This document shows positions 37,502 to 41,801 of a stretch of 60,268 nucleotides of DNA, one piece after another. The notes under the pieces are model-generated. The model made no database searches, was not told where the DNA came from, and saw only the letters and a program-made list of their open reading frames with translations. Position numbers and translations under genes: made by a program. Source of the DNA: an uncultured Synechococcus sp. (GTDB taxonomy: Bacteria > Cyanobacteriota > Cyanobacteriia > PCC-6307 > Cyanobiaceae); assembly GCA_913050565.1 (NCBI GenBank), contig CAJWZW010000002.1, positions 1 through 60,268 of the forward strand. The letters are read 5' to 3'. Positions within the stretch are counted from its first letter, which is position 1. The number at the start of each line of letters is the position of its first letter.

Positions 37502-38005
37502 ATGCCACCTCTGGCCACACTGACGCTCTACGTGCTGGCCGGCACCACCATCGGGCTGCTTGCACTGTTCAGCCGGATCCCCGCAGCTCCGTTGGCTGGA
37601 GCCTTGCTCGGAGCGGGTGTCCTGAGCATCAGCGGGCGACTGGAACCCGCGACATGGCCGACAGGGACACGAACGGCGCTTGAAATCGGCATCGGCACGG
37701 TGCTCGGTGCAGGCTTGACGCGCACATCCTTTGTCCAGCTGCAGATGCTGTGGAAACCAGCCCTGCTGATCACCCTGAGCCTGGTGCTCACGGGAATCGT
37801 GGTTGGGCTGTGGAGCAGTCGCCTCCTCGGCCTTGATCCCGTGGTGACTCTGCTGGGTGCTGCTCCAGGGGGGATCAGCGGAATCAGCCTGGTTGGAGCG
37901 GAATTCGGTGTCGGAGCTGCCGTAGCAGCCTTCCACGCCGTGCGATTGATCACGGTGCTGCTGGTGTTTCCTCTCGTGGTGCGCCTGATCAGCACTGGAC
38001 AGTGA
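37502..38005 (+). CDS. AbrB-type membrane protein (putative transporter/regulator)
   Basis: A 167-residue membrane protein matching one repeat of the AbrB/MmpL-like membrane duplication family (not the AbrB DNA-binding protein). Around five hydrophobic helices are visible, with the family signatures RIPAAPLAGALLGAG near the N-terminus and LLGAAPGGISGISLVGAEFG before the last helices. The usual bacterial protein has two such repeats; this has one, so it may work as a dimer. The start is uncertain: ATGs at 37430 and 37445 are also open. The substrate is unknown. Confidence 0.78.
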   Translation: MPPLATLTLYVLAGTTIGLLALFSRIPAAPLAGALLGAGVLSISGRLEPATWPTGTRTALEIGIGTVLGAGLTRTSFVQLQMLWKPALLITLSLVLTGIVVGLWSSRLLGLDPVVTLLGAAPGGISGISLVGAEFGVGAAVAAFHAVRLITVLLVFPLVVRLISTGQ

Positions 38006-38049
38006 CGCTGCCATCGATACGTTGTGTTGACGCCGTGTTCCTCCCTGCC

Positions 38050-38493
38050 ATGCGTCGCCTGCTCGTGCTCAGCACCGCCGGACTGATCGGTGGATTGCTG
38101 GGCTGTTCCATGGGCGCCATGGCTGGCGAAACAACCCAGGCGAAGGGAGCCAGGATCTACTGCTTCATGCGATCCAGCGGCAACGATCACGATGTGAGCT
38201 GGAACGCTGCTTACGCGCTGATCAAGCGCCAGGGGCGCAGCATGTTCAAGACATCACCGGAACATGCTTCGGTGATGATCACAGAAGCTGTGGTCAATGA
38301 CCCGGGCAGCTACCCGGATTGCGGACGCTACCTGGGAGATTTGTTCGGAGGATCCAAGCCCTCAACGGCATCACTGAAGAGCGCCACCTCCAACGTCAGC
38401 AGATCGACAACCGCCACCGACACAACCGCGGGCCTGTCCGGTGGCACTGATCTGGGCGGTTCCACTGGAACCAGCGAGCGCTACAGCTACTGA
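38050..38493 (+). CDS. Unknown exported protein
   Basis: A 147-residue protein with an N-terminal signal (MRRLLVLSTAGLIGGLLGCS), which could be read either as a lipoprotein signal (Cys19) or as cleaved after AMA. The mature part has a compact domain (GARIYCFMRSSGNDHDVSWN, then MFKTSPEHASVMITEAVV) with two cysteines, followed by a Ser/Thr/Gly-rich tail. It appears to be a picocyanobacterial conserved protein, but I cannot assign a role. Confidence 0.7.
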   Translation: MRRLLVLSTAGLIGGLLGCSMGAMAGETTQAKGARIYCFMRSSGNDHDVSWNAAYALIKRQGRSMFKTSPEHASVMITEAVVNDPGSYPDCGRYLGDLFGGSKPSTASLKSATSNVSRSTTATDTTAGLSGGTDLGGSTGTSERYSY

Positions 38494-38517: not shown

Positions 38518-40143
38518 TCAGGCTGACTTCAGACACTGACGAACCATCGCTGGAAGTGATGTCCGGGAGAGTTGCAAGCGACGTGGACCCAGCAGAATCT
38601 CAATCTGCTGAGCTTTGCTGGCCACAAGCCCATCCACCAACTGGTCGGCCGGTCCGAGCTGCAACCAATGGCAGGTGAGACCCACGCCATCCATTCCAAG
38701 GCGATGGCAGCGGTCTTCCGCTTGATCGACATCGCCTGGTGTCCAGGGCCTTTCCAGGAGAACAACATGTCGCGCGCGGTGGAGGGTGAAGCCCAGACCC
38801 CCTGTTCCGAAAGTGGCAAGAAGCAGATCGCTGTCCCCCTGCTGAAAACGATCAACAGCAAGCTGACGCTCCGCCGGACGCTGACGACCGATCAGCAGCT
38901 CGCCACCCAGCCGTTGCTGCAGCAACTGAAGAGGTTCGATGAATCCACTGAAGAGCACCACCGCCTCACCGCGATCAAGCAGCTCTCGAAGCAGATGAAC
39001 GGCAGCCGGGAGCTTGAACTCTGCTGCGATACGACGAAGAGCGGTGAGCAAAGCCAGAGGTTCGGCATCGGATCGCACCTCCCCCAGGGCAGCCCGGCGA
39101 CGGTAATCCTCAAGGATGAGATCCACCCGGTGATCAAACCCCAGGGCTTCGGCCTCCGTCAGCACAACAGGTTGCTGGCGACGTCGTTTGGGCGGAAGGG
39201 TCAGCACCTGCGACTTGCGTCGATGCAGGATCAGCGGTCGGGTCAGACGCCGGAGTTCCTCGAGCTGCGACGCACCGCTGGCCTGCCACTGGCGTCTTCC
39301 GTGACGTTCACGCCAATGCCCCTGGCAGTAGCGCTCCTCATACTGCCGCTGGTCCCGTGCGATCGGATGGTCGATCGCCGCCAACAGTGGAAACAACTGA
39401 TCCGGACGACCATTCTTCATCGGAGTGCCGGTGAGCATCCAGATCGCCCTGAGTCGGGGATGTCGAGCCAATCGCAACAACGCCGTCGTGCGCGCGGCTC
39501 GCAGCGACTGAGCGAAGTGAGCCTCGTCGACCACCAGAAGTGTGCCCGCGGGTGGAAGCTCTGTCGGCAACCGGGCCCAGCTCACCAGCTGAAGCCGAAG
39601 GTTGACTCCTTCGGCCTCCCGGCGCCAGTGCGGGTGGAGGCCGACCGGTGCCACCACCATCAGCCTCAGTGACGTGCATCGCATGAGAGCCCTCGCCGCC
39701 AGCAATGCCGTGAGGGTCTTGCCAAGGCCCATCTCATCAGCCAGAACAGCTCCCCGACGAGCCAACAGCCAGCGGGCTCCCGACCGCTGATGGGACAGCG
39801 GAACCCGACCATCCGGTAGGGGTTGATCAAGATCCGCTGCCTTCACAAGCTCCCGATGGAGCGGTAGCGGGGGAAGCGGACTGTCGCACCAATCCAGCCA
39901 CTGCTTCAGTTCGGGCGTCAGTGGAAAGCGCCGTCCGAGACACTCGCGAAGCGGGTTCGCCGCTCCCAGAGGAAACTCCCACCCCTGCTTGGAACCGATC
40001 CAGCGTCCACGCGGTCTGATGCGACGCAATTGAGCCTGAGTGACCGCATCAAAAGGGCTGACCACCCGGATCAGGCCGGAGGGAGACAGATCAAGGCTGC
40101 ACCGAGGACGCTCAGAAGCGGAAATTGAAATCCCCGCAAACAA
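38518..40143 (-). CDS. SNF2-family DNA-dependent ATPase, HARP/SMARCAL1-like
   Basis: A 541-residue superfamily 2 motor. Motif I is DEMGLGKT (136-143), motif II is VVDEAHF (about 209-215), motif III is LTGTPMKN, motif V is ATFGTGGLGFTL, and motif VI is QAEDRCHRLG. The roughly 90-residue N-terminal region (RRIRPRGRWIGSKQGWEFPL) resembles the HARP domain of annealing helicases such as SMARCAL1. That suggests strand rewinding or fork remodelling, which is inference. The start is TTG at 40143. It is divergent from an HNH nuclease gene. Confidence 0.85.
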   Translation of the reverse strand: MFAGISISASERPRCSLDLSPSGLIRVVSPFDAVTQAQLRRIRPRGRWIGSKQGWEFPLGAANPLRECLGRRFPLTPELKQWLDWCDSPLPPLPLHRELVKAADLDQPLPDGRVPLSHQRSGARWLLARRGAVLADEMGLGKTLTALLAARALMRCTSLRLMVVAPVGLHPHWRREAEGVNLRLQLVSWARLPTELPPAGTLLVVDEAHFAQSLRAARTTALLRLARHPRLRAIWMLTGTPMKNGRPDQLFPLLAAIDHPIARDQRQYEERYCQGHWRERHGRRQWQASGASQLEELRRLTRPLILHRRKSQVLTLPPKRRRQQPVVLTEAEALGFDHRVDLILEDYRRRAALGEVRSDAEPLALLTALRRIAAEFKLPAAVHLLRELLDRGEAVVLFSGFIEPLQLLQQRLGGELLIGRQRPAERQLAVDRFQQGDSDLLLATFGTGGLGFTLHRARHVVLLERPWTPGDVDQAEDRCHRLGMDGVGLTCHWLQLGPADQLVDGLVASKAQQIEILLGPRRLQLSRTSLPAMVRQCLKSA

Positions 40144-40283
40144 TCACCCTACAGAAATTGAGGTGATCAACAAGCGACTGCGAATTGCCGTGTCACATCA
40201 GCAACGAACTGTCGAAAATGCAACGCTCGACACATTGACTCATCTTTCCTCTGCGCCAGAATTGATTCAGCCGAAACTCTCGG

Positions 40284-40685
40284 ATGCACAGCAGGGATGC
40301 AGTTTTTCTCGATGAACTCTGCCCCAAATTACGCGTCCGACGATGGAGACAATCTCTACACAAATGCACCGGCAAAAAGTGTATTTATTGCGGCAAGCCA
40401 TCCGAATCAATTGATCACATTCATCCCCGGGCGCTTGGTGGATTAAGCGTGACTCAAAACTGCGTGCCGGCGTGTCTGTCCTGCAACGGTCATAAATCGG
40501 ATTCTGAAGTCTTTGATTGGTACAGGCGTCAGCGCTTCTACGACCCCCGACGCGCCATGGCCATCCGCGCCTGGATGGATGGTGATTCGAGATTGGCGTT
40601 GCGACTGCTGCAATGGGCGGAACCTCTCAATGGATCCTCATCACCGACGGACGAGGACGACAACCTGAACTGCCAGGTTGCATGA
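40284..40685 (+). CDS. HNH endonuclease-family protein
   Basis: A 133-residue protein with a complete HNH zinc-finger nuclease core: CIYCGK at 33-38, the catalytic SIDHIHPRALGG, and NCVPACLSCNGHKSD supplying the second Cys pair and the Asn/His. Helices before and after (RRWRQSLHKCT, RAMAIRAWMDGD) may contact DNA. An in-frame stop lies just upstream, so ATG 40284 is the only start. It is divergent from the SNF2 gene by 140 bases of AT-richer DNA. The target is unknown. Confidence 0.82.
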   Translation: MHSRDAVFLDELCPKLRVRRWRQSLHKCTGKKCIYCGKPSESIDHIHPRALGGLSVTQNCVPACLSCNGHKSDSEVFDWYRRQRFYDPRRAMAIRAWMDGDSRLALRLLQWAEPLNGSSSPTDEDDNLNCQVA

Positions 40686-40895: not shown

Positions 40896-41801
40896 ATGCT
40901 TTCCCGGCTTGTCAACCAGGCCCAGCCGCTCGAGCCAACCGCCAGGGTTCTGGTGCTGGGGAAGGGCTACAGCGGCCGCTGTTTTTCACAGTTGCTCAAT
41001 GCCCTCGGAACCCCAGTCATCGGCACGCGACGGAAGCCTGACAACAACAGCACCGACATCGCCTTCGACAGCGCGACAGACCTGCAACCCAGCCCAGGCG
41101 ACCTCGAGGGCGTCAGCCATGTGCTGTGCACCATTCCTCCCTCACAGGATGGACGGGATCCGGCCCTTGAATGCCTTGGACCTCTGCTGACCAAGATTTC
41201 ACCGGTCTGGGTGGGCTACCTCTCGACCACTGGGGTCTATGGAGATCGCCAGGGGCAGTGGGTCAGCGAAACCGATCCAGCTTCACCGGGCCAGGAACGC
41301 AGTCGCCGCCGTCTGGGGTGTGAACAGGCCTGGCTCAACAGCGGCCTGCCGGTTCAGATCCTGCGGCTGCCTGGAATCTATGGACCGGGACGCTCCGTGC
41401 TCGATGGATTGAAATCCGGTCGGGCCCGTCGCATCAATAAACAGAATCAGGTCTTCTGCCGTATTCATGTCGAAGACATCGCCGGTGCCTGTTTGCACCT
41501 CATCCACAGGGCATCCAGAGGTCATGCGCCGTCGATCGTCAACGTTGTCGACGATGAACCAACCCCTTCCGGGGAACTGCTGGTGTTCGGTGCAGACCTG
41601 CTCAACTGCAATCCGCCTCCGGAGGAGAACTACACGGATGCCTGCCGGAACATGAGCCCAATGGCCCGGTCCTTCTGGAGTGAAAATCGTCGGGTCAGCA
41701 ACCGGCTGCTTTGCAACGAGCTCGGATACAAGCTGCTGCACCCCAACTACCGCGACGGCCTGCGGGACTGCCTGATGCAAAGCGATCAGTCGAACATTTG
41801 A
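40896..41801 (+). CDS. NAD-dependent epimerase/dehydratase-like (SDR) protein
   Basis: A 301-residue extended-type SDR. The nucleotide-binding loop reads VLVLGKGYSGRCFSQLL (about residues 18-34), the central GYLSTTGVYGDRQGQWV resembles the Ser/Tyr active-site region, and LRLPGIYGPGRSVLD is typical of the YeeZ-like subgroup. The usual YxxxK is not clearly present (SRRRLGCEQAW instead), so catalysis by the standard mechanism is doubtful. Its function in the cell is unknown. It precedes pdxA on the same strand. Confidence 0.82.
   Translation: MLSRLVNQAQPLEPTARVLVLGKGYSGRCFSQLLNALGTPVIGTRRKPDNNSTDIAFDSATDLQPSPGDLEGVSHVLCTIPPSQDGRDPALECLGPLLTKISPVWVGYLSTTGVYGDRQGQWVSETDPASPGQERSRRRLGCEQAWLNSGLPVQILRLPGIYGPGRSVLDGLKSGRARRINKQNQVFCRIHVEDIAGACLHLIHRASRGHAPSIVNVVDDEPTPSGELLVFGADLLNCNPPPEENYTDACRNMSPMARSFWSENRRVSNRLLCNELGYKLLHPNYRDGLRDCLMQSDQSNI

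Follow-up and report, generated by a model that had tools for sequence, protein, structure and literature searches.

A compact SNF2 helicase with a putative HARP-like domain beside a stand-alone HNH nuclease in a frozen gene block of picocyanobacteria

The stretch of DNA analysed here (the window, 60,268 nucleotides from an uncultured picocyanobacterium of the genus Synechococcus) is one of the contigs of a 1.78 Mb genome that is 87% complete, and it carries a divergent pair formed by a SNF2 helicase gene on the minus strand (38518–40143) and a stand-alone HNH nuclease gene on the plus strand (40284–40685), with 140 bp between them. On balance, we favour the reading that the helicase is a compact HARP-like junction motor with relatives among the helicases of phages and plasmids, that the adjacent HNH nuclease is a protein also kept alone, and that their pairing is a matter of frozen gene order. 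The helicase would thus act as a compact DNA translocase, in which a HARP-like domain placed immediately ahead of the SNF2 motor probably grips DNA junctions, and the motor probably rewinds or branch-migrates these junctions at stalled forks and recombination intermediates, in a manner comparable to SMARCAL1 or to phage UvsW. The HNH protein would be a small zinc-site nuclease, probably a nicking enzyme acting on damaged or branched DNA, which certain lineages retain also without the helicase. The two genes would remain side by side because the chromosomal block in which they lie is frozen; cooperation between them is possible.

Among the papers listed by literature searches there is none on a helicase-HNH gene pair in cyanobacteria, and the general idea of a bacterial ZRANB3 counterpart is already in print (PMC5481773). 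The results point to a compact HARP-like SNF2 motor on the chromosome of ecologically major cyanobacteria of ocean and lakes, with phage and plasmid relatives and a layout near the minimal one defined for the annealing helicase activity of SMARCAL1, and hence to a candidate simple system for fork remodelling and for the origin of HARP domains. Also, a natural experiment is on offer, as the motor is missing from some lineages with small genomes that still have the nuclease.

The SNF2 motor and its N-terminal domain

The helicase is a member of the SNF2 (SF2) ATPases, as its two Pfam domains score well over their cut-offs (SNF2-rel_dom, E 1e-21 and 77.8 bits against 24.9; Helicase_C, E 2.8e-12 and 47.3 bits against 23.5) and the motif residues are invariant in the 80 closest named loci. 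This is observed both for K142 and T143 of the Walker A motif DEMGLGKT (residues 136–143, positions 39715–39738, minus strand) and for the DEAH of motif II (residues 206–209, 39517–39528, minus strand), each in 80/80 loci. The motor extends over about residues 97–520 (38584–39855, minus strand), and solved SNF2 motors align over about 97–521. PDB fold searches retrieved SNF2 motors, mostly of chromatin remodellers and none of them informative on the N-domain, with no HARP entry among the matches listed.

A search of 291 genomes of the class at an E-value of 1e-30 detected the helicase in 22, and all but one of these belong to the family of the window. Within this family, of Synechococcus/Cyanobium type, the gene is chromosomal and has a fixed position. 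The remaining genome, outside the family, has its copy on a contig that agrees with plasmid NC_019691.1 of Synechococcus PCC 7502 in length (63,272 bases) and in the start of the match. Plasmid copies from Nostoc, Microcystis and PCC 7502 share 36–38% identity with the query over 93–94% of its length; altogether 29 plasmid records match, 16 of them from Pseudomonas, with 28.5–29.1% identity among the matches listed. The copy on the Nostoc PCC 7524 plasmid lies near dnaB and that of N. commune near an SSB gene, and no named replication gene was found within 5 kb of the Microcystis plasmid copy. The phage side is represented by a match to phrog_62 (E 4.8e-65), by viral contigs in IMG/VR with up to 43% identity among the best 80 matches, and by seven records of GenBank phages (28–31%). 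A fold search of BFVD likewise has phage SNF2 helicases among its best rows, the query TM score being 0.36–0.65 in the first ten. Three viral loci were examined for their neighbours, which are exonuclease, RecT-like, DnaC-like or DnaB-like in two of them and ParB-like in the third. As a side observation, one viral relative (L219, 2634–6098) is 1155 residues long, and its motor contains an intein-like match that stays under the cut-off (PF14890, E 9.3e-7).

Judged by sequence, the nearest outside relatives of the helicase are thus those of phages (phrog_62) and cyanobacterial plasmids, which are the best among the matches listed and differ from it in being borne on phages and plasmids and in that no HNH of this profile was found beside them in the loci scanned; a descent of the chromosomal gene from a phage or plasmid replicon appears plausible. 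These relatives and their neighbours, together with the proposal, in PMC7824862, that Snf2-type helicases of jumbo phages substitute for UvsW in recombination, argue for a role in replication or recombination. The likeness to T4 UvsW and T5 D10 resides in the role proposed for the helicase, branch migration in recombination-dependent replication (PMC5180179 and PMC7824862); these two belong to another SF2 group, and the comparison is a functional one only.

The initial annotation had recognised a HARP pattern ahead of the motor, and this pattern is present at residues 45–59 (RGRW-IGSKQ-GWEFPL). It had also proposed to check this by a HARP profile search, and in this search the window protein gives no match to PF07443 up to E 10. 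Each of 23 cyanobacterial N-domains was scanned singly and none matched, and in 61 genomes the locus of the helicase likewise gave no match, with none of them (0/61) reaching the curated cut-off of 25 bits; matches below this cut-off occur elsewhere by chance in 16 of the 61 genomes and in 3 of 14 controls. In turn, PF07443 is matched by five of nine phage relatives, with E-values of 0.0005–0.0065 which are below the cut-off, and by none of six further outside relatives (four plasmid proteins and two viral) at E 1.

Comparison of profiles links the N-domain to HARP indirectly. A profile built from 13 phage N-domains retrieves 4O66 (SMARCAL1 HARP2) from the PDB as first match, with an E-value of 0.0016 against 1.5 for the next one, and a mixed profile with these 13 and 15 cyanobacterial rows does the same (E 0.0024, the next being 0.42). 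The profile made only from cyanobacterial N-domains did not find 4O66 in the PDB and yielded only chance matches, with repeat proteins on top. The phage rows are a sample biased towards resemblance, as they were selected out of the best 80 viral relatives for an N-terminus that could be aligned or had a similar appearance, and in many of the remaining 67 the N-terminus looks different. The cyanobacterial and phage N-domain profiles align with an E-value of 1.5e-11, and since this alignment took in the start of the motor it was repeated on the HARP segment alone: hhalign then gives an E-value of 1.5e-7, for one comparison, and a score of 36.4, to be compared with a maximum of 23.4 over 40 column shuffles and with 9.8 for the reversed control. 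Finally, AlphaFold2 predicts for residues 16–72 (39928–40098, minus strand) a strand-strand-helix-strand-strand-helix arrangement, an order plausible for HARP (mean pLDDT of 87.7 for the model and block pLDDT of 81–94 across residues 11–80).

Altogether, the HARP assignment has indirect support from the phage-profile link, with a plausible predicted structure, and falls in what concerns a direct PF07443 match. As the link runs through phage intermediates without a direct match, we term the domain HARP-like and not a PF07443 member, an assignment which derives from profiles and from a model. The resemblance to SMARCAL1 lies in the position of this domain, directly N-terminal to the SNF2 motor; the difference is that the HARP similarity is established via phage intermediates only, with the Pfam match absent. 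In human SMARCAL1 the second HARP domain plus the motor are sufficient for annealing helicase activity, according to PMC4035279, and because a HARP-like domain directly precedes the motor here as well, we liken the layout to that of a minimal annealing helicase, for which an annealing activity would be expected.

The HNH nuclease

The HNH protein belongs to PF01844, which it matches with an E-value of 1.6e-9 (38.2 bits, the cut-off being 21.4), and its catalytic residues are invariant. The zinc and catalytic core (residues 33–68, positions 40380–40487, plus strand) comprises C33, C36, D44, H45, N59, C64, C67 and N68, which are conserved without exception in 77/77 loci with the helicase, in 18/18 loci without it (from 15 genomes) and in 2/2 second copies. 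Following the core, a stretch comprising residues 77–112 is conserved among the cyanobacterial proteins.

The gene pair evokes ZRANB3 (AH2) in that it, too, comprises a SNF2 motor and an HNH nuclease whose zinc site has four cysteines, but there are several differences: here we find two divergent genes and not one polypeptide, and the HARP-like part of the helicase is N-terminal to the motor, whereas in ZRANB3 it is C-terminal. Moreover, ZRANB3 has a specific helical insert between the CxxC and the DH of its HNH, which is absent here, since residues 33–73 (41 residues) fill 46 of the 47 positions of PF01844 (positions 1–46) and the core alignment of 29 rows has zero gaps and zero insertions, so that no stretch of about 39 residues has been added. 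The deletions 975–1013 and 972–1010 in PMC5481773 concern this insert, and the same paper already mentions ZRANB3-like proteins of bacteria as well as HNH relatives that stand alone.

A profile search identifies Gmet_0936 (PDB 4H9D) as the closest solved structure, with an E-value of 4.4e-8. It is also a small stand-alone HNH with a four-cysteine zinc site and has the catalytic residues D-H, N and N in register, the difference being the conserved C-terminal stretch (residues 77–112) that belongs to the cyanobacterial family. When a single sequence is used as query, 4H9D ranks fourth (E 7.8e-6), behind larger HNH-domain proteins. The predicted structure of the HNH protein was rejected as a search query (mean pLDDT of 60). 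Gmet_0936 is described, in PMC3765158, as a weak nickase with a preference for abasic-site DNA, and its N77H variant as having no preference for cruciform DNA; a nicking activity of the cyanobacterial protein would agree with this.

Some further observations concern additional copies and relatives of this gene. Most family genomes have one more match to the HNH protein at E 1e-5, and a second HNH gene, with 42% identity over residues 21–73, is located at G000:C4:29443–29607 (L002). The small genomes of group g17 without the helicase have two or three near full-length copies, the extra ones listed sharing 62–67% identity with the HNH of the window (for example at 937978–938313 and 1349376–1349756 of G152:C1). 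Beyond the cyanobacterial family, the core shows similarity to the HNH domains of Cas9d (E 7.1e-11) and IscB (E 4.4e-7), with scores far under the cut-offs of those families. The Prochlorococcus HNH gene PMM1528 is UV-induced, as stated in PMC2921402, and it was set aside as expression evidence because its orthology to the HNH gene of the window could not be shown.

Gene order and the relation between the two genes

By the terms of the initial annotation, rare co-occurrence of the two genes would have refuted it; instead, the HNH gene is found in 134 of 136 genomes with the helicase. Once 11 genomes with only a weak helicase paralogue had been set aside, the 201 genomes of the family comprise 134 with both genes, 39 with only the HNH, two with only the helicase and 26 with neither; the HNH gene was counted as absent in 28 genomes in which its best match was worse than 1e-10 or there was none. 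Restricting the count to the 120 genomes at least 95% complete gives 88, 24, zero and eight, respectively. The HNH gene thus lacks the helicase in 39 of the 173 genomes that have it, and those of these HNH-only genomes that are well completed are small and, judged by this size, may be streamlined Prochlorococcus; several Prochlorococcus loci, such as that of MIT 0701, do have the helicase. The HNH gene is the divergent neighbour of the helicase in 79 of the 80 best named loci, with 42–272 bp between matches. The exception is L182, a 9,808-base contig of Prochlorococcus sp. AG-463-F15 in which the helicase is kept, the HNH is gone and the epimerase gene abuts the helicase, which may reflect either a true deletion or an error in the assembly.

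The two genes are flanked by those of a DUF6554 protein (38002–38493, plus strand) and a NAD-dependent epimerase-like protein (40896–41801, plus strand), which Pfam and locus comparison identify as syntenic. In named loci with sufficient flanks, the helicase and the HNH gene are adjacent in 72/73 cases, the helicase and DUF6554 in 71/72, and the HNH and the epimerase in 70/72; further along the block the values are 66/68 for epimerase-pdxA and 64/64 for pdxA-accB. The adjacency of helicase and HNH is therefore no tighter than that of four other pairs of the same block, and carries no special weight, as the whole block is frozen; we have rejected it as evidence of shared function. In five HNH-only loci the helicase is absent from its site between DUF6554 and HNH, and both genes are absent between DUF6554 and the epimerase in one genome (G025) and between AbrB and the epimerase in four loci of group g8. 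A guaA tree of 28 rows groups five of six HNH-only rows together in a single clade and has the remaining one, G017, on a long branch, while the genomes with neither gene fall in a g8/g49 clade and, apart, in G025; with 8 of 25 inner branches of this single-gene tree open, and given the long G017 branch, the number of losses is approximate.

In view of these results, it appears unlikely that the pair is a single functional unit, a two-gene bacterial counterpart of ZRANB3 whose HARP-SNF2 motor would bring the HNH nuclease to forks or activate it there, a possibility raised at the outset. The lack of helicase-only genomes among the 120 more complete ones, the nearly constant divergent arrangement with short spacing, and the joint absence of both genes in the four g8 loci and also in G025, which lies on another branch, would all fit such a unit. 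But the four neighbouring pairs are equally tightly kept, the HNH gene stands alone in 39 genomes (of which 24 are at least 95% complete), L182 has the helicase alone, and the ZRANB3-specific insert finds no space in the HNH core, so that the proposal is left unsupported. Moreover, a search with the HNH profile at E 0.001 gives no match in the best 80 viral helicase loci, with flanks of up to 5 kb of which many are incomplete, and at E 1 none in the four plasmid loci. A weak HNH-like ORF (L290, 311–1135, E 0.014) is noted about 40 bases upstream of a viral SNF2 helicase, on the same strand. Quite unlikely in our view is also a joint entry of both genes into the ancestor of the picocyanobacteria from a phage or plasmid replication module, giving rise to a two-component fork machine with an HNH-dependent helicase, in which the HNH would be the core that persists and the helicase an accessory that some streamlined lineages have lost.

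The role in anti-phage defence, also put forward initially for a helicase-nuclease module, is highly improbable. PADLOC profiles do match, DpdE, ZorD and DrmD with the motor and PDC-M01B and PtuB with the HNH core, but the best stretches span just these cores, and the NCBIfam cut-offs are far from reached (for ZorD, 53.6 bits against 1500), so that no whole-length family match to Zorya, Dpd, DISARM or Septu was obtained. Pfam identifies the four neighbours examined as AbrB, DUF6554, epimerase and pdxA, and almost all of the compared loci share this block, unlike patchy defence islands; we have rejected a defence module on the grounds of partial matches and a fixed chromosomal context. The initial interpretation is supported in part: the HARP-like N-terminus gains indirect support and the co-occurrence is high, but a PF07443 match is lacking, the adjacency is no better than that of other pairs, the HNH core lacks the ZRANB3-specific insert and defence is disfavoured. 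A sharper form of our preferred reading, which we hold as a serious if tentative option, is that the HNH is a domesticated phage-type nuclease, for example one nicking abasic or damaged DNA, whose role is unrelated to the helicase, the latter being a separate genome-maintenance motor. It is consistent with the 207 phage records that match the HNH protein, 105 of them under Synechococcus (35.6–43.5% identity in the 20 rows listed), with the extra HNH copies in several helicase-less genomes, and with the abasic-site preference of Gmet_0936 and the lack of cruciform preference of its variant. However, three genomes of other cyanobacterial families also match (32–43%), 4H9D is behind larger HNH-domain proteins by single sequence, and the function is drawn from a distant relative.

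Base composition, gene start and intergenic region

Both genes are real and divergent and the HNH gene is small and complete, as initially described and as confirmed by the open reading frames and the Pfam domains over cut-off. The most similar named helicase locus is that of Synechococcus sp. AG-679-D13, with 92% identity. The AT-richer composition noted for the HNH side is also confirmed, the GC content being 53.5% in the HNH gene and 48.6% in the intergenic region against 62.0% in the window, in which 1.3% of the 402-nt stretches are as low in GC as the HNH gene. This was ruled out as a sign of recent import, as the GC content of the HNH gene is below that of the helicase gene in 63 of 70 relatives measured.

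The HNH protein has 133 residues from an ATG, and the helicase has 541 when counted from a TTG. The latter start is doubtful, since one relative with 92% identity (L136) has an in-frame TGA at helicase codon 6 and 16 of 99 orthologues have no ATG, GTG or TTG at least 12 codons ahead of P30, a point upstream of the conserved first strand; in four of the 99 there is none anywhere before P30. The helicase gene of the window (region 40056–40143) and its orthologues may use a non-standard start codon. In the divergent intergenic region (40144–40283) a promoter scan detects one sigma-70-like match, for the HNH gene (40235–40262), where 0.2 are expected. An alignment of this region from the window and 20 relatives contains conserved blocks in which visual inspection suggests two distinct promoters pointing outward and not one shared operator; of these two putative promoters, the scan picked up that of the HNH gene only.
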